Made by a program: the position numbers and the translations under genes. Under the pieces are notes generated by a model. The model was not told where the DNA came from, ran no database searches, and saw nothing but the letters and a program-made list of their open reading frames with translations. Shown here one piece after another: positions 20,997 to 36,885 of a stretch of DNA of 36,885 nucleotides. This DNA comes from a virus. Where the stretch lies: the IMG/VR virus record IMGVR_UViG_3300035691_000016, positions 1 through 36,885 of that record; one strand, given 5' to 3'. Numbering within the stretch: the first letter of the stretch is position 1; each line of letters begins with the position of its first letter.

Positions 20997-21248
20997 ATGA
21001 AATATAGAAAAAAACCAATAATTATTGAAGCATTCCAGTTTGGAGTAGATGAACAACCAGAATGGTGTGAACATGGTGGGAAAGTGATGATCGTCGCATC
21101 ACCATTAAAAGTATGCGCTTATATAGATACTTTGGAAGGCAGAATGACAGCTGAGGTTGGCGATTACATTATAAAAGGCATAAAAGGCGAAATTTATCCT
21201 TGTAAACCTGATATTTTTGAAGCTACTTATGAGCCTATAAATGAATGA
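20997..21248 (+). CDS. PGDYG-type phage protein
   Basis: 83 residues. The start MKYRKKPIIIEAFQFG, the middle YIDTLEGRMTAEVGDYIIKG and the end YPCKPDIFEATYE are the hallmarks of a very common phage protein family (PGDYG). Function unknown. The stop overlaps the next ATG by eight bases. Confidence 0.75.
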   Translation: MKYRKKPIIIEAFQFGVDEQPEWCEHGGKVMIVASPLKVCAYIDTLEGRMTAEVGDYIIKGIKGEIYPCKPDIFEATYEPINE

Positions 21249-21441
21249 CTTCACCAAAAAAGAGCTCGAGTTAATTATGGATGCCATGCATTATTGGGTA
21301 ATTCAAATAGAGAACCCACCACCAGAAGAAACAGATTTACTCGATAAAATTCATTCCATGATCGAAAATTATGGCTGTGAGCATGAGTGGATTAACAATA
21401 CTTATTGTGAGAAATGCAATAAATCATGTGAGTGTCATTGA
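21241..21441 (+). CDS. Tandem-paralogue small protein 1 (zinc-type tail)
   Basis: 66 residues with the layout MNDFTKKELELIMDAM, then a variable helix, then KIHSMIENYGCEHEW and a CEKC/CECH metal-type tail. Same layout as the genes at 21601 and 21786. Function unknown; such genes occur as variable tandem sets in phage early regions. Confidence 0.65.
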   Translation: MNDFTKKELELIMDAMHYWVIQIENPPPEETDLLDKIHSMIENYGCEHEWINNTYCEKCNKSCECH

Positions 21442-21458
21442 ACATTTTAGTACGAATC

Positions 21459-21608
21459 ATGATTATTCGAAAATTAATTTGTTATTTTCTTAGCCATCAA
21501 TATAGATATCACCATACAAATAAATGGTATGACATAAAATGGAATTTACTGGAAAGTAGAATTGGTCGCTGCGAAAGGTGTGGCTTAATGAGGAAATTAA
21601 ATGAATGA
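21459..21608 (+). CDS. Small zinc-ribbon-like protein
   Basis: 49 residues, basic and aromatic, with a single CERC motif near the C-terminus and HQYRYHHTN in the middle. It overlaps the next gene by eight bases. It resembles the protein at 22317 in layout (MII start, CxxC tail) but is not clearly the same family. Confidence 0.5.
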   Translation: MIIRKLICYFLSHQYRYHHTNKWYDIKWNLLESRIGRCERCGLMRKLNE

Positions 21609-21789
21609 CTTCACGAAAGAAGAATTAAAAGAACTTATTTTATTTGTAGATGGTGGCATACGACACGCCACTCATGCGGTTGAGTTACGTAATAAGCTCC
21701 AATCCATGATTGATAACTATTGCGAGCATGATATGCAATATGCGTCTGGTGAGTTTAATTATTGTGATAAGTGTGGAATAAAAGATTGA
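21601..21789 (+). CDS. Tandem-paralogue small protein 2 (zinc-type tail)
   Basis: 62 residues: MNDFTKEELKELILFVDGG, then KLQSMIDNYCEHDM and a CDKCG tail. At the DNA level its first ~24 bases are nearly the same as those of paralogue 1. The stop overlaps the next gene's TTG start (TTGA). Confidence 0.65.
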   Translation: MNDFTKEELKELILFVDGGIRHATHAVELRNKLQSMIDNYCEHDMQYASGEFNYCDKCGIKD

Positions 21790-21992
21790 ACGAATTTACC
21801 AAACAGGAACTTGAGCAGATTAAAGGCGCTCTCTGTAGCGCATCATTTCCAATAAACATTGATTTGTTCAAGAAAATCCACTCCTTGATCGATAATTACT
21901 GCGAACACGAATGGATATTCCATCTAAAACTACCTGGCAGTTCTATTGAATGTCGCAAATGTCAAAAGATTCTACAAAATGATAATCAGTGA
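21786..21992 (+). CDS. Tandem-paralogue small protein 3 (zinc-type tail)
   Basis: 68 residues starting at TTG 21786, which overlaps the previous TGA; the product then begins (M)NEFTKQELEQIKGAL and aligns with paralogues 1 and 2. Middle KIHSLIDNYCEHEW, tail CRKCQKILQ, C-terminus NDNQ. A longer frame from 21771 would lose this alignment. Confidence 0.65.
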   Translation: MNEFTKQELEQIKGALCSASFPINIDLFKKIHSLIDNYCEHEWIFHLKLPGSSIECRKCQKILQNDNQ

Positions 21993-22496: not shown

Positions 22497-22504
22497 AAAA
22501 ACTC

Positions 22505-22581
22505 GGGGAGTAACTCAGTTGGTAGAGGGCAAGACAGAAATGTCGGGACGTGTCGCTGGTTCGAGTCCAGCCTCCCCACCA
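22505..22581 (+). tRNA. tRNA-like gene with degenerate anticodon arm
   Basis: 77 bases ending in an encoded ACCA. The acceptor is only 6 bp (GGGGAG / CTCCCC). The D-arm core ACTCAGTTGGTAGAG is canonical. The T-arm GCTGG-TTCGAGT-CCAGC is perfect. In place of the 5-bp stem and 7-base loop of an anticodon arm there is GACA-GAAA-TGTC, a 4-bp stem with a GNRA tetraloop and no U33-type loop, so no anticodon can be assigned. RNase P and RNase Z could still see the acceptor/T-arm half. It is either a decayed tRNA or a deliberate tRNA mimic. Confidence 0.6.
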
Positions 22582-23360: not shown

Positions 23361-23534
23361 ATGAAATTATCGGAAGAACAGTTTTTATTTTTGATACAAG
23401 TCTTGAAAGAATCAATTGAAGTTGACCCAAGATTTGATTATGTTTTTTCTAATGCTAAGTTGGAGCGCAAGAGATTCTATAAACAATTAGTTGCTACACA
23501 GCCAGCAGAAATATTGTTGAAAATTGATTTGTAA
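23361..23534 (+). CDS. Small phage protein (unknown)
   Basis: 57 residues (MKLSEEQFLFLIQVLKESIE, then a basic helix KLERKRFYKQL). Short helical proteins starting like this are common in phages. RBS weak (GAG seven bases upstream). It splits the otherwise non-coding stretch into two. Confidence 0.5.
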   Translation: MKLSEEQFLFLIQVLKESIEVDPRFDYVFSNAKLERKRFYKQLVATQPAEILLKIDL

Positions 23535-23934
23535 CAATATTGTTAGATAGATACAATGGAAGTGCTTTAATACTCCTTGTGTTGAGGTCTTGCAGGCTTG
23601 TCACTGTGCCTTAAACAGTGACAACCATCTATGAGCAACATGTTTTTAGTTAACTTCTATTCCAAGAATACTAACCAATGTTGCTCACCAATTAATATAA
23701 ATATACTTTAATTAAATCATCAATTTAGTTATATTTAAGGTGTTCAACCATTAAATTTCATCAAGCAGTGTACTGCAGCTACGCTGCTTGTCTCTTTGCT
23801 CTCTTTGTTGTACATTTAAGTCGCTGTAAGTCTATGCAGCTCGGCGACGTTGTTTAACTCTCTTCGTCGCCAACCGACTATGCCCTGGTGTTTAGAGCTC
23901 CTTCTCGCTGGGGCGCCAATCTCAAAAGGAAATT
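23535..23934 (+). ncRNA. 400-base structured leader upstream of ssb
   Basis: No gene seen. Stems found by eye: TTGTCACTGT / ACAGTGACAA (23598-23624, 10 bp); TGAGCAACAT / ATGTTGCTCA (23632-23687, 10 bp, with an inner GTTA/TAAC); CAAGCAG / CTGCTTG (23762-23790); and two mutually exclusive hairpins, GTCGC/GCGAC (23820-23848) and GGCGACG/CGTCGCC (23843-23871). Loops are rich in CTCTTT-type pyrimidines. The ssb RBS AAAAGGAAATT follows directly. The alternative pairing looks like a leader that can switch, controlling ssb, or an independent RNA. Confidence 0.45.
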
Positions 23935-24354
23935 ATGAAAGGTATAAACAAAGTTATCCTTGTTGGTGCAGTTGGCCAAGATCCGGATTTTGCATTTAGC
24001 AATAACGGCAATCCAAGAGCCTCTTTTTCTTTAGCCACCGGCGTAAAGTTTAAAGACAAAACTACAGGTGAAACTCAAGAAAAAACGACCTGGCATAATT
24101 TAGTCGCTTTTGGAAAGAAAGCTGAGATTGTTAATGAATACGTGAGAAAGGGTAGTCGCTTGTATATTGAAGGCACAATAGACAACCAGTCTTATGATAA
24201 AGATGGTGAAAAGCGATATTTCACGAAAATAATTATTCAAGACATTAATTTGCTGAGCAGCAAAGACGATTTTAAATCGCCGCATAACCAAACGCATCAA
24301 GAGCCGCCGCCGAATATGAGTGACAACGAGCTTGATGACGACATACCATTTTGA
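23935..24354 (+). CDS. ssb: Single-stranded DNA-binding protein
   Basis: 139 residues: an OB-fold (MKGINKVILVGAVGQDPDF to about residue 108), with INKVILVG, ATGVKFKD and TWHNLVAFG blocks typical of bacterial SSB, then a Pro/Gln/Asn-rich linker and the acidic tip DDDIPF that recruits partner proteins. Protects single strands during replication and the RecT-type annealing encoded leftward at 27368-28468. Probably controlled by the structured leader upstream. Confidence 0.95.
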   Translation: MKGINKVILVGAVGQDPDFAFSNNGNPRASFSLATGVKFKDKTTGETQEKTTWHNLVAFGKKAEIVNEYVRKGSRLYIEGTIDNQSYDKDGEKRYFTKIIIQDINLLSSKDDFKSPHNQTHQEPPPNMSDNELDDDIPF

Positions 24355-24363
24355 TAGTCATGT

Positions 24364-24418
24364 GACGCCGGATTGACGTCACATTGACACAAAAACGACA
24401 TCAAAAAGACGTCATTCT
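24364..24418. repeat. Centromere-like array parS-L: five 11-bp repeats
   Basis: GAC starts at 24364, 24375, 24386, 24397 and 24408, exactly 11 bases apart. The best units are GACGTCACATT and GACGTCATTCT. The last unit overlaps the stop codon of the ribbon-helix-helix gene. Same period, unit and orientation as the array at 25388-25442 on the other side of the operon. Probable binding array for the ribbon-helix-helix protein. Confidence 0.7.
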
Positions 24419-24681
24419 TTTAAATACTTAATCTTTTGTTTCACGGACTCCCAGATGAATTCCAGACATATTGAATTCATTGATTGGCCGGTGATATTTG
24501 AAATCTCTTCGACCGTATCATATAAATTTGCAGGCATTCTTAAAGTGAATCGTTTTGTTTCTTGTCGAGACGCCTTAGCAGGTTGTGGAATGTTTACGGC
24601 TCCATTAATAAAATCGCTGCGCATCTTTTCTTTTTCAATTTCATTCATGATTGGCGGTTTAGAAAACTTAGGTCTGTTCAT
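24412..24681 (-). CDS. Ribbon-helix-helix partition protein (ParG-like)
   Basis: 89 residues. The basic, flexible N-terminus (about 1-42) is followed by a ribbon-helix-helix fold: strand KRFTLRMPANL, helix YDTVEEISNITG, helix SMNSICLEFIWES. This is the layout of ParG/CopG partition proteins: the tail stimulates the ParA ATPase and the fold binds DNA repeats. It follows parA by one base gap in the same operon and lies against the left repeat array. Function by context and fold pattern. Confidence 0.7.
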   Translation of the reverse strand: MNRPKFSKPPIMNEIEKEKMRSDFINGAVNIPQPAKASRQETKRFTLRMPANLYDTVEEISNITGQSMNSICLEFIWESVKQKIKYLKE

Positions 24682-24682
24682 A

Positions 24683-25363
24683 TCAATTACCCTTTACAAA
24701 AATTTCGGCGTATAGTTGCTTGAGTTCGCTTTCGGCGTTTTTATCGACAACACCACTTGTCTTGTCATGCAAAAGCTCTAATACAGATTGGCCGAGGATT
24801 GCTGATTTGCGATAGGCTTGGCGAGTTACTAAAACAGTGTCCATCAAAATCAAATCGGGGAACTCTTCTAAATAATCGAGCATGTCCTTGATTTCATTTT
24901 TCTTGAGTTGTGGCTGAAAGGATGCTTGGCTTAATAAGATAAGAACCTTGAGCTTAGGATTAAGCAATTTGGCGCGCTTGATGTGCTCATTCATTTTACT
25001 CATCGTCCAAATATCGAATTGACCCGCGCGGAAAGGGGATATCAATAAATCCGCAACAAGCATGCCTGAACGTAATTCGAAAGAATCGTAGCCGCCAGCA
25101 TCAATGATTACATCTGAGTATTTCTTGTTGAGTGACTCAATATCTTGGCTGATATCACCTGTTTTTTGCACTGACGTGATTTTTGTTTTAACATTCTCGG
25201 ATAAATTTCGCGTAGAACACCAGAGCGTGGCAGTTTGTTGTTTGTCGGCATCTGCTAGAAGGAGATTATCACTGCCGATTTCAATGGCTCTCATTGCAGC
25301 CAAATTTGTTGCGATCGTTGTTTTTCCTGTGCCGCCTTTCTCGCCACCGATTAAAATAATCAT
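24683..25363 (-). CDS. parA: ParA-type partition ATPase
   Basis: 226 residues with the deviant Walker A GGEKGGTGKTT (residues 6-16), a DADKQQTATLW segment (Walker A' region) and VIIDAGGYDS (Walker B). This small form, without an N-terminal DNA-binding domain, is the ParF/ParA-Ib type. It moves plasmid copies over the nucleoid. RBS AAAGGAAAA is upstream; a -10 TATGAT (25386-25381) is embedded in the right repeat array, implying autoregulation. With no integrase in the genome, it points to episomal maintenance. Confidence 0.9.
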   Translation of the reverse strand: MIILIGGEKGGTGKTTIATNLAAMRAIEIGSDNLLLADADKQQTATLWCSTRNLSENVKTKITSVQKTGDISQDIESLNKKYSDVIIDAGGYDSFELRSGMLVADLLISPFRAGQFDIWTMSKMNEHIKRAKLLNPKLKVLILLSQASFQPQLKKNEIKDMLDYLEEFPDLILMDTVLVTRQAYRKSAILGQSVLELLHDKTSGVVDKNAESELKQLYAEIFVKGN

Positions 25364-25387
25364 GGTTTATTTTCCTTTAAATCATAC

Positions 25388-25442
25388 GGCGTCTTTTCGA
25401 CACCAAAACGGCGTCATAATGACGTCACACTGACTGTTCATA
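25388..25442. repeat. Centromere-like array parS-R: five 11-bp repeats
   Basis: G(A/G)C starts at 25388, 25399, 25410, 25421 and 25432, exactly 11 bases apart (GGCGTCTTTTC, GACACCAAAAC, GGCGTCATAAT, GACGTCACACT, GACTG...). It covers the parA promoter. It matches the array at 24364 in period and core (GACGTC), so the par operon is bracketed by two arrays. Confidence 0.7.
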
Positions 25443-29718: not shown

Positions 29719-29818
29719 TTTAAACACCAACCTTAAGGTTGTGTCAACCATAAGGTTGTACAACTTTAAGGTTTATTATTTTGATATCCTTAAGCATGCA
29801 TCCTTAAGGTTGTACAAT
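29719..29818. promoter_or_regulatory. Divergent promoter-operator region with five CTTAAG operators
   Basis: Five 14-bp sites: CAACCTTAAGGTTG (29728), CAACCATAAGGTTG (29745), CAACTTTAAGGTTT (29761), TATCCTTAAGCATG (29785) and CATCCTTAAGGTTG (29799). The leftward promoter has -35 TTGACA (29747-29742) and -10 TTTAAA (29724-29719) with operator 1 filling its 17-base spacer. The rightward promoter candidate has -35 TTAAGC (29790) and -10 TACAAT (29813) with operator 5 in its spacer. A mirror-image lambdoid switch. Confidence 0.7.
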
Positions 29819-29863: not shown

Positions 29864-30073
29864 ATGACACTAGAAGAAGCGGTCGCAGAATTTGGTAGTG
29901 GTAGACAAGTTTGCTTGGCTTTAGGAATATCAGATCGTAATTATACAAAATGGAAACAAAGAGGCTGGATCCCGCAGGCTCAGCAGTTACGATTAGAAAA
30001 ATTGACACAAAATAAATTGAAAGCTGACGAATTTGGCTCTGATCGAAGGCCATTACCGAAAGTAGAGGATTAG
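29864..30073 (+). CDS. Cro-like transcriptional regulator
   Basis: 69 residues from ATG 29864 (GAGG six bases upstream). Small HTH: EEAVAEFGSGRQVCLALGIS then DRNYTKW as recognition-helix region, and WIPQAQQLRLEKLTQNKLKA, the tail seen in P22/lambda Cro proteins. First rightward gene after the five operators, so it probably binds them. Its first 30 residues are about 80% identical to the regulator at 31304. Confidence 0.8.
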   Translation: MTLEEAVAEFGSGRQVCLALGISDRNYTKWKQRGWIPQAQQLRLEKLTQNKLKADEFGSDRRPLPKVED

Positions 30074-31113: not shown

Positions 31114-31307
31114 AGCCAAGATTTGCTTTTATCATTTTTATATTTGTATTTATATTCTTACAAATGGGATTTTTATTTCAATTTATGAACAATGTAAGCA
31201 TGACTAAAACAATAATTGATGTACAAGGAGTTATTGCTTTTTGCTGGGGTGCTCTGTGTTTTCAAATATATTTTGTAGTCAAAACTCTGGTTGAGTGGAT
31301 AGGATGA
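31110..31307 (+). CDS. Small two-helix membrane protein
   Basis: 65 residues with hydrophobic segments at about 6-28 and 41-62 separated by a short loop (MNNVSMTKTIIDVQG). Holin-like by size, but in an early operon. Overlaps the next gene by ATGA. Confidence 0.5.
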   Translation: MKPRFAFIIFIFVFIFLQMGFLFQFMNNVSMTKTIIDVQGVIAFCWGALCFQIYFVVKTLVEWIG

Positions 31308-31684
31308 CGATAGAAGAAGCTCTAAAAGAATTTGGCAGTGGAAGACAGGTTTGCATAGCCCTAGGTATTAGCGATCGAAACTGGACTCGCTGGGTTCGTG
31401 AGGATTTAATCCCCCTAAAACACCAGCAGAAGCTTTCAGAATTAAAGCCAAAATTGAAAATGATGGACTCGATTACCTATCAAGAGAAACAACAAAATAA
31501 AGGCAAAAAAGAAATTTCTATTGATGTCAATTATGGATTTCCATCGAAAGAACAATTCAAAGAAATGGCAAAATTATGCTTAAAAGACAAGAAGAAATTT
31601 ACAATTGATGATTTATCTGATGCAATTGAAGCAGCGTTTATTGCTGGTTGGAATAAAAAAGAAAAACAACTTAAAAAGGAATAA
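31304..31684 (+). CDS. Second Cro-like regulator with C-terminal extension
   Basis: 126 residues from ATG 31304 (ATGA overlap; the GTG nine bases upstream is less likely). Residues 1-55 are a close copy of the first regulator (EEALKEFGSGRQVCIALGIS, DRNWTRW). Residues 56-126 add a helical domain (PSKEQFKEMAKLCLKDKKKF, then DAIEAAFIAGW). No CI is found elsewhere, so this could act as the lysogeny repressor. Not a CI by sequence: no LexA-type peptidase residues. Confidence 0.75.
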   Translation: MTIEEALKEFGSGRQVCIALGISDRNWTRWVREDLIPLKHQQKLSELKPKLKMMDSITYQEKQQNKGKKEISIDVNYGFPSKEQFKEMAKLCLKDKKKFTIDDLSDAIEAAFIAGWNKKEKQLKKE

Positions 31685-31928: not shown

Positions 31929-32080
31929 GTTGTTCAAAGGAAAGAAGGATTTTCAAGCAGCAACGAAATCAAATACTCGTATTGGATACCTGTGCTCAGG
32001 TTTCTTTGCAGCTTGTTGAAGTACAACGCAGGCAATGCCCTGTCCAACAAGATGCCGCAGAAGGCGGTAGGAGTAGTAAA

Positions 32081-33385
32081 GTGAATTTAGCTCAATCAAC
32101 AGAAACAGAATTTCGATCCAACTCAAGATACGTAAAAATGGAAGAGGATGTAATTAAGGTTTTACGTAATACAACACGTGGTGTTTATTACACATTACGT
32201 CTATACGCCGATTATAAAAAGAAAGTTTCCACTGTAAAAATGACTGTCGATAAAATTGCCAGACTAAGCAATATCGGTAGAACAACAACAATCAAATGCA
32301 TCAAAGAGCTCTGTGATTTAGGTGTGATTCAGCGACAAGAAGGAAGAAGCTGCTATGAACCTGCAACATATTTGATAGCCAATGAGATTAATTATTTTAC
32401 GAAAGATAGCGAAAATATTTCCGTTCCAATAGGATCAAATATAAACCATTCGATCAAATATCAGTCATACAATAGTAGTTCAACGTTAGTTTATAGTGGT
32501 ACACATTCTGTACCACAGTGGTTCACAAAGTGTACCACTGTAGTTCACAATCCGAACCACTGTGGTTCAAAAAGTGAATACTATTCATTAATATCTTCAT
32601 TATCTTTTTCAATAAATAAAAATAAACTAATAAAAAATGATTTTGGAGAAGATAAGAAAAGTGAACTACAAGGAAAAATTAATCGACTTGACGAGGACAC
32701 CTTGTTAGAGCAAGATTTGGCAAAAAACGAAAATCCTCAAAAAATGGATAATTTGCAACAAACTGATTCTATTAACGAAAAAATCACTAAGTCTGATTAT
32801 CGAAATAATCGTGCAAATTGTTCATTGGATGTACAGAATGGATTGATTAAGAAGAAAAACAAGACTAAATCTAAGTTAAACATAGAACCTTACATAGAAA
32901 TTTACAATCGCATCGCAGTCGAGCAGGGAAGCCCACCTGTGCGAAATAATAAATCAATCCTCAAGCAAGTTGAGAAGAGCCTTAGGGACTTATTGGCCGA
33001 ACTGAAAGAGGAAGAAAATCCCGTTGATTTCACGCCAGAATATTTCGAGCGATTTCTCAAGGCTTCGATTCAAAGCAAATGGTTCTTGCTCTGCGAATAC
33101 AAATCAAACCTTCACGTACTTCTAAGGCCAAAGAATTTTCTTTTGCAACGCGACGTTCTCAATGCAGCGCTTGAAACGCAGAAATTAGATCGTCAAAAGA
33201 AAGACGACAATGCAAAGCGGCAGCTAGAACAAGAAAAAGCCCAAGAAATCATGGCTAAGAAGAGGGCGGCTGAATATCTCCAAGCAGCGAATGAACGAAA
33301 AGAAACAGCTGTAGGGGCTTTAAAATATCCAGGCTATCAAAGCAGGCGAGCTACGTTACTAAGTCTCGTAGGGCGAACCGTATGA
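32081..33385 (+). CDS. Replication initiator (lambda O-like)
   Basis: 434 residues from GTG 32081, with AGGAG seven bases upstream; a longer TTG frame lacks a ribosome site. N-terminal winged helix (about 15-100): VKMTVDKIARLSNIGRTTTI and CIKELCDLGVIQRQEG, the O-type DNA-binding domain. The middle is a Ser/Asn/Lys-rich linker containing the candidate origin. C-terminal domain (about 265-370: EPYIEIYNRIAVEQGSPPV and KASIQSKWFLLCEY) is of the kind found at the end of phage primosomal initiators and should load the host helicase. Confidence 0.8.
   Translation: MNLAQSTETEFRSNSRYVKMEEDVIKVLRNTTRGVYYTLRLYADYKKKVSTVKMTVDKIARLSNIGRTTTIKCIKELCDLGVIQRQEGRSCYEPATYLIANEINYFTKDSENISVPIGSNINHSIKYQSYNSSSTLVYSGTHSVPQWFTKCTTVVHNPNHCGSKSEYYSLISSLSFSINKNKLIKNDFGEDKKSELQGKINRLDEDTLLEQDLAKNENPQKMDNLQQTDSINEKITKSDYRNNRANCSLDVQNGLIKKKNKTKSKLNIEPYIEIYNRIAVEQGSPPVRNNKSILKQVEKSLRDLLAELKEEENPVDFTPEYFERFLKASIQSKWFLLCEYKSNLHVLLRPKNFLLQRDVLNAALETQKLDRQKKDDNAKRQLEQEKAQEIMAKKRAAEYLQAANERKETAVGALKYPGYQSRRATLLSLVGRTV
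32494..32645. other. Candidate replication origin inside the initiator gene
   Basis: Direct and inverted copies of GTGGTTCACA / GTGGTACACA: forward at 32496, 32518, 32540 and 32562; inverted GTACCAC or GAACCAC at 32510, 32532 and 32554. Alternating units recur every ~22 bases (two helical turns). An AT-rich stretch (32578-32645) follows. Lambda O has its iteron origin plus AT-rich unwinding region in the same place. Confidence 0.7.
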
Positions 33386-36384: not shown

Positions 36385-36846
36385 ATGTCCAAGGAAAATA
36401 AAACGAGCAAAAAGGCGTTAGGTCGCCCATCTATTGCTATACCCGATAAGATTCTTGAAGAAATTCTCGACGGAGTTAGTACAACAACTAAGGGGCTCGA
36501 AATTCTTTGCGAAGAAAATCCAAGCTGGCCTTCTGCTCGAACCATTTATCGTAGGATGCGACATGATGAAGATTTTTGTCAGAAATACGCACGAGCGAAA
36601 ATAGTTCAAGCTACAATCCTTGCAGATGAAATTATTACAATTTCCGATTATTCAGATCGAGATACTATTGTTGACGAGGATGGGATTGAAAGAGCCAATC
36701 ATGAATGGATAGCCCGGAGCAGGTTGCGAGTTGATTCTAGGAAATGGCTTGTCTCTAAACTTATTCCTAAAGTGTATGGAGATAAGACACAAACCGAAAC
36801 AACAATTACCTTTAACCATGAAAACGCTTTGAATGAACTTAAATAA
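36385..36846 (+). CDS. terS: Terminase small subunit (Sf6/P22-type)
   Basis: 153 residues from ATG 36385 (GAGGGTGAG upstream; GTG 36376 is less likely). N-terminal HTH region (GRPSIAIPDKILEEILDGVS, then ARTIYRRMRHDEDFCQKYAR), a helical oligomerisation part with ADEIITISDYSDRD, and RLRVDSRKWLVSKLIPKVYG, a motif I know from Sf6-type small terminases. It recognises the packaging start and hands DNA to TerL. The short palindrome CCCTC-A-GAGGG (36366-36376) sits just before it. Confidence 0.85.
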   Translation: MSKENKTSKKALGRPSIAIPDKILEEILDGVSTTTKGLEILCEENPSWPSARTIYRRMRHDEDFCQKYARAKIVQATILADEIITISDYSDRDTIVDEDGIERANHEWIARSRLRVDSRKWLVSKLIPKVYGDKTQTETTITFNHENALNELK

Positions 36847-36885
36847 TGAGTCCTGAAGAGCGAGAAATACGACAAAAACTCAAAG
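36769..36885. repeat. Terminal overlap of a circular genome (right copy)
   Basis: Copy of bases 1-117 with T instead of G at 36834. Carries the end of terS and the first 36 bases of terL, showing that genome numbering simply wraps here. Confidence 0.95.

Follow-up and report, generated by a model that had tools for sequence, protein, structure and literature searches.

The question raised by this locus is whether two short repeat arrays, a parA gene and a ribbon-helix-helix (RHH) gene constitute a partition system in a phage genome, and whether that system maintains the phage as a plasmid. The window analysed is the whole virus record of 36,885 nucleotides. Very probably, the locus encodes a partition cassette of type Ib (ParF/ParG-like) that has two centromere/operator sites and maintains a phage-plasmid. 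The type Ib features found are a small Walker ParA lacking an N-terminal DNA-binding domain, an RHH gene directly downstream whose product has a flexible tail, and an upstream array. A GACGTC-like core occurs on both sides of parAB in an arrangement that recurs in relatives, and the surrounding phage genome is complete, encodes packaging and virion functions and lacks an integrase.

On the minus strand the operon runs from the right array through parA and the RHH gene to the left array, after which the end of ssb is reached (Table 1). Counted from the parA start codon, the right array lies 25–79 bp upstream, and the RHH gene follows the parA stop by 1 nt. The RHH stop codon (24412–24414) falls inside the last unit of the left array, which begins 9 bp past ssb, so that this array touches the RHH gene and the region just past ssb, as the first-pass annotation had described. 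A sigma-70 scan gave no clear promoter for parA. The ATPase carries a deviant Walker A motif (KGGTGKTT, residues 9–16), its ATPase domain starts at residue 2, and it matches the PHROG of ParA-like partition proteins (phrog_164, E 2e-36); its nearest solved structures are ParF of TP228 and another ParA. These matches and the Arc-like partner bear out the earlier assignment of a partition operon flanked by the arrays.

Table 1. Coordinates of the main features in the window
Feature	Position	Strand	Description
Direct terminal repeat	1–117	none	Identical to 36769–36885 except for one base (mismatch at position 66)
ssb, single-stranded DNA-binding protein	23935–24354	+	Convergent with the par operon; neighbour, outside the module
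Left (downstream) array	24364–24418	none	Five 11-bp units where ssb and the RHH gene converge; proposed centromere site 2
RHH centromere-binding protein gene (putative role)	24412–24681	-	89 aa, Arc-like
parA	24683–25363	-	226 aa, ParF-type Walker ATPase
Right (promoter-side) array	25388–25442	none	Five 11-bp units, GRCGYC-like cores; proposed operator and centromere site 1
Candidate replication initiator/helicase loader	31982–33385	+	Winged helix; weak DnaD-like and replication-initiation PHROG matches

Direct reading of the arrays gave five units on each side at an 11-bp period. The left array reads GACGCCGGATT, GACGTCACATT, GACACAAAAAC, GACATCAAAAA and GACGTCATTCT, and the right array reads GGCGTCTTTTC, GACACCAAAAC, GGCGTCATAAT, GACGTCACACT and GACTGTTCATA. 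The core is a quasi-palindrome with the variants GACGTC, GACGCC, GGCGTC, GACATC and GACACC; the third unit of the left array (GACACA) and the last of the right array (GACTGT) are degenerate. GACGTC reads identically on the opposite strand, and GAC occupies the first half in 8 of the 10 units and GTC the second half in 5 of the 10. The shared core proposed earlier stands; the accompanying statement that both arrays have the same orientation is nearly empty, because the orientation of palindromic units is hardly defined.

The genome is a complete P22-type podovirus. Its 117-bp terminal repeat, with a single mismatch, indicates a circular or terminally redundant genome that is complete at 36,768 bp. 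It encodes terS, terL, portal, scaffold, a P22-type coat, a head-closure protein, a tail fibre and an endolysin, together with RecE/RecT, ssb and a candidate replication protein. The reported absence of an integrase was upheld: no tyrosine integrase (PF00589) was found in the window, and a PHROGs scan of the larger ORFs revealed neither a recombinase nor a transposase. No phage record showed direct DNA similarity, and related podovirus records are numerous at the level of TerL (54–69% identical). Several of these TerL relatives have terminal repeats of ~100–177 bp, so those genomes look complete too. Integrase and ParA genes were counted in 47 podovirus records (44 found via TerL and 3 via ParA), many of which are fragments. 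An integrase is present in 5 of the 47 and absent from 42; a ParA-family gene is present in four, three of them the records found via ParA, and the majority have neither. A replacement of integrase by par within the TerL group could not be demonstrated, as most records hold neither gene. In two records of the same phage group (G012, and G045, which holds L002/L189), the par genes lie close after the tail-fibre genes, and the comparison of gene content indicates that members of this group may carry par or do without it, as an optional cassette.

A phage-plasmid is the likeliest lifestyle, as first proposed, given the complete phage genome and the missing integrase; however, the latter is weak evidence alone, since integrase absence is usual in related records (42/47) and is uninformative by itself about a plasmid prophage. 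An unlikely but still appreciable alternative is that the module belongs to a virulent phage or pseudolysogen, in which ParA and the RHH protein would position or segregate replicating DNA without a stable plasmid prophage, or ParA might serve some other purpose. Such a lifestyle would agree with the common lack of integrase among the relatives and with the lack of any recognised CI-type repressor in the window, where two Cro/YdaS-like regulators were the only ones found. Yet these Cro-like regulators, together with a four-copy operator-like repeat (29728–29813), suggest a genetic switch, and many mycobacteriophages carrying par in place of integrase form extrachromosomal lysogens (PMC7157519, PMC6550527).

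Related operons keep the period of the arrays while the core changes. Loci with a related ParA and an RHH partner were gathered from viral contigs, genomes and plasmids, and about 40 were surveyed. An 11-bp period scored best both upstream and downstream of the operon in the window as well as in L101, L102, L182, L186, L189, L191, L197 and L199, with shuffle P values of 0–0.1 per side. Their cores are GATATC in L101 (a gammaproteobacterial MAG) and L189, TGATATCA/GCTAGC in L102 (Legionella drozanskii), TGATTGCA in L182 and L186, and TGGTGC in L197, which is a D6-like record, as is L199. Other periods also occur on both sides, namely 9 bp in Photobacterium pPDD-Na-1-3 and 7 bp in pEC224_4. The downstream array is absent from L183, and no clear array was found in L201, L220 or L090; bracketing of the operon is common, not universal. 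In a separate observation, L090 (positions 1290–2124; record G012, which also holds L025) is a quite different ParA/RHH pair located after the tail genes of a same-group podovirus, with no obvious arrays around it.

The two arrays of a locus resemble each other far beyond chance, and this resemblance does not extend between loci. Across 12 loci, own upstream and downstream arrays shared 207 7-mers against a mean of 120 for swapped pairs (0 of 20,000 permutations), whereas control stretches 300–500 bp away showed no significant pairing (P 0.07–0.71). These far-flank controls rule out base composition as the cause. Sharing within but not between loci points to the two arrays of each locus being bound by a single cognate RHH protein, which lends support to the earlier claim that both arrays here are sites of one RHH protein. 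At the positions that we take to be the DNA contacts of Arc, the aligned residues are R, T, R in the window and A, Y, R in L189; this difference fits the GACGTC and GATATC cores, a match that is suggestive only.

The recurrence of downstream arrays also bears on whether the right array alone matters, acting as a transcriptional operator, with the left array being no centromere but a decoy, or else a roadblock where ssb and par converge. The positions suit such an arrangement, as the right array occupies the region immediately upstream of parA, from which ParG-type proteins control their own expression (PMC7308502), and the left array sits exactly between two convergent genes. We nevertheless regard it as improbable, because downstream arrays recur in relatives and have their motif in common with their upstream partners, and several of them match or exceed the upstream array in length.

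The identity of the RHH protein was assessed from sequence and predicted fold. It matches Pfam Arc (3.7e-5), and Arc is also its best sequence match among solved structures. In the AlphaFold2 model, a low-confidence N-terminal tail (pLDDT 61–76 over residues 1–40) precedes a confident two-helix C-terminal ribbon-helix-helix domain (pLDDT 89–96 beyond residue 40). A Foldseek search of the PDB ranked Arc best, with TacA, CopG and CdbA below it, although the E-values are not significant for so short a chain. The N-terminal tail carries an F-x-K/R-P-P motif common to the closest relatives, and the RHH alignment contained no stretch conserved enough for a profile search. The resemblance to Arc, in a phage whose virion genes are P22-type, could mean that the RHH protein acts as a regulator of the phage, in the manner of P22 Arc, and that its association with ParA is incidental. 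This is very improbable in view of the small RHH-like gene that follows parA in the window and in nearly all relatives examined, the conserved tail and the flanking arrays.

The arrays stand out from the rest of the window by several measures. No run of four or more G[AG]C at any fixed spacing of 6–15 bp was found outside the two arrays on either strand of the whole window, and five G[AG]C at 11-bp spacing turned up in none of 200 first-order Markov sequences. When scored against GACGTC at spacing 11, the arrays reached 25 and 23 of 30, compared with a maximum of 19 in 200 randomised windows and best scores of 16–18 at the other spacings of 8–14 bp. Randomisation thus agrees with direct reading in confirming the two five-unit arrays with a GACGTC core that had been annotated. 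Chance is ruled out by these statistics, and although plasmid origins too carry arrays of short direct repeats, chance or replication iterons together deserve next to no weight, as independent loci have arrays flanking parAB on both sides and the candidate replication gene lies 6 kb away.

For the favoured partition cassette, a working mechanism can be proposed. RHH dimers would bind the quasi-palindromic hexamers, one per helical turn, in both arrays. Binding to the right array, just upstream of parA, would repress the operon and form one partition complex, and binding to the left array would form a second. The arrays probably cooperate and, judging from precedent, may be bridged into a loop of ~1 kb. 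As expected for the family, the RHH N-terminal tail would stimulate nucleoid-bound ParA-ATP, which would separate circular phage genomes before division; the phage is most likely a low-copy plasmid prophage. Full ATPase stimulation in pSM19035 needs at least four contiguous sites (PMC9499535), and if that rule holds here, five units per array would suffice.

Known partition systems share parts of this design. TP228 parFGH, whose ParF is the nearest solved ATPase, also combines a small ParA lacking an N-terminal HTH, an RHH partner with a flexible N-terminal tail and an upstream repeat region that is both operator and centromere (PMC7308502, PMC5016525), a role that is putative here. It differs in that parH consists of degenerate tetramer boxes with AT-rich spacers, a site type not found in the window arrays. 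Those have period 11 with hexamer cores and gave no signal at 8 bp, and one of them stands downstream of the operon. The idea that ParG-type proteins need sites phased on one DNA face at 11 bp consequently fails: parH is built of tetramer boxes (PMC7308502), and 11-bp repeats are described for R1 ParR (PMC9426499). Against 10.5 bp per turn, an 11-bp spacing drifts by ~2 bp over five units. In plasmid R1, the RHH protein ParR binds 11-bp direct repeats in parC, and ten repeats are described as flanking the operon promoter (PMC9426499). The likeness of this type II system is limited to the RHH protein and the 11-bp repeats, because its motor is the unrelated, actin-like ParM and its repeats are all upstream, whereas the window has repeats on both sides and a Walker ATPase of the ParA/MinD type, not a ParMRC-type actin-like ATPase.

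The bracketed layout has closer parallels elsewhere. One account of pB171 par2 gives the order parC1-parA-parB-parC2 (PMC4270457). Both this E. coli plasmid and the window have parAB bracketed, by two centromere sites in pB171. In work that PMC4270457 cites, the pB171 RHH ParB reportedly pairs both sites, a precedent by which bridging of the window arrays may be possible; the repeats themselves are said to be unlike those of the window in sequence and number. The temperate mycobacteriophage RedRock lacks an integrase; each of its two parS loci consists of eight 8-bp repeats, and its prophage is extrachromosomal at 2.4 copies per cell (PMC7157519). It resembles the window in lacking an integrase and having two flanking sites, a likeness of layout; it is an actinobacterial phage, and its 8-bp repeats differ from the 11-bp units of the window. 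Escherichia phage D6, a P1-related phage-plasmid, encodes a ParA 36–37% identical to that of the window and a small downstream gene, and D6-like records have 11-bp arrays on both sides; D6 differs in its ~91-kb genome, P1-like genes and TGGTGC-like core. Metagenomes have also yielded circular phage scaffolds that encode ParA/ParB, some of them lacking an integrase (PMC4490671).

The bracketed partition design is already known from plasmids and other phages, and what is possibly new is a centromere subgroup. We tentatively suggest, at less than even confidence, a distinct and widespread type Ib subgroup with an Arc-like RHH protein, an F-x-K/R-P-P tail and two operon-flanking centromeres at a fixed one-turn (~11-bp) spacing. 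In this subgroup, the core would change in parallel in the two arrays of each locus (GACGTC, GATATC, TGATTGCA, GCTAGC, TGGTGC), giving naturally diversified orthogonal RHH–centromere pairs in P22-type phages, larger phage-plasmids and bacterial genomes. The comparison of relatives shows that the spacing of the docking sites persists across changes in their sequence. Such related, differently addressed cassettes offer a direct test set for DNA recognition by RHH centromere-binding proteins and allow the need for two flanking sites to be tested directly. A complete, small P22-type podovirus also joins the likely phage-plasmids.

Other parts of the genome may serve replication and regulation. The candidate replication gene (Table 1) possibly supports plasmid-state replication, or it could serve lytic replication only. 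Two paralogous Cro/YdaS-like regulators (29864–30073 and 31304–31684) have start regions 74% identical in DNA; the latter, which has a C-terminal extension, may be the lysogeny regulator, given that the window has no recognised CI-type repressor. The palindrome CAACCTTAAGGTTGT occurs four times at 29728–29813, between recE (minus strand) and a Cro-like gene (plus strand), and this stretch is likely the operator region of a genetic switch.

Adjoining ssb and par, about 500 apparently non-coding bases (23430–23935) contain a chain of strong hairpins, with folding z-scores against shuffles of −5.75 on the plus strand and −2.36 on the minus strand. No convincing Rfam match and no phage-database BLAST match were found for this region. 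In integrase-less mycobacteriophages with par, RNA-based origins are often near parABS (PMC7157519); by analogy, the region is a candidate structured RNA or replication origin/origin RNA. A tRNA-like Rfam match at 22504–22579 scored 35.3 bits (gathering threshold 29) and was not called by ARAGORN. Three small ORFs at 21241–21992 have similar openings (NDFTK/NEFTK) and C-terminal CEH...C..C motifs, and they resemble tandem copies, since diverged, of a gene for a small zinc-finger-like protein.
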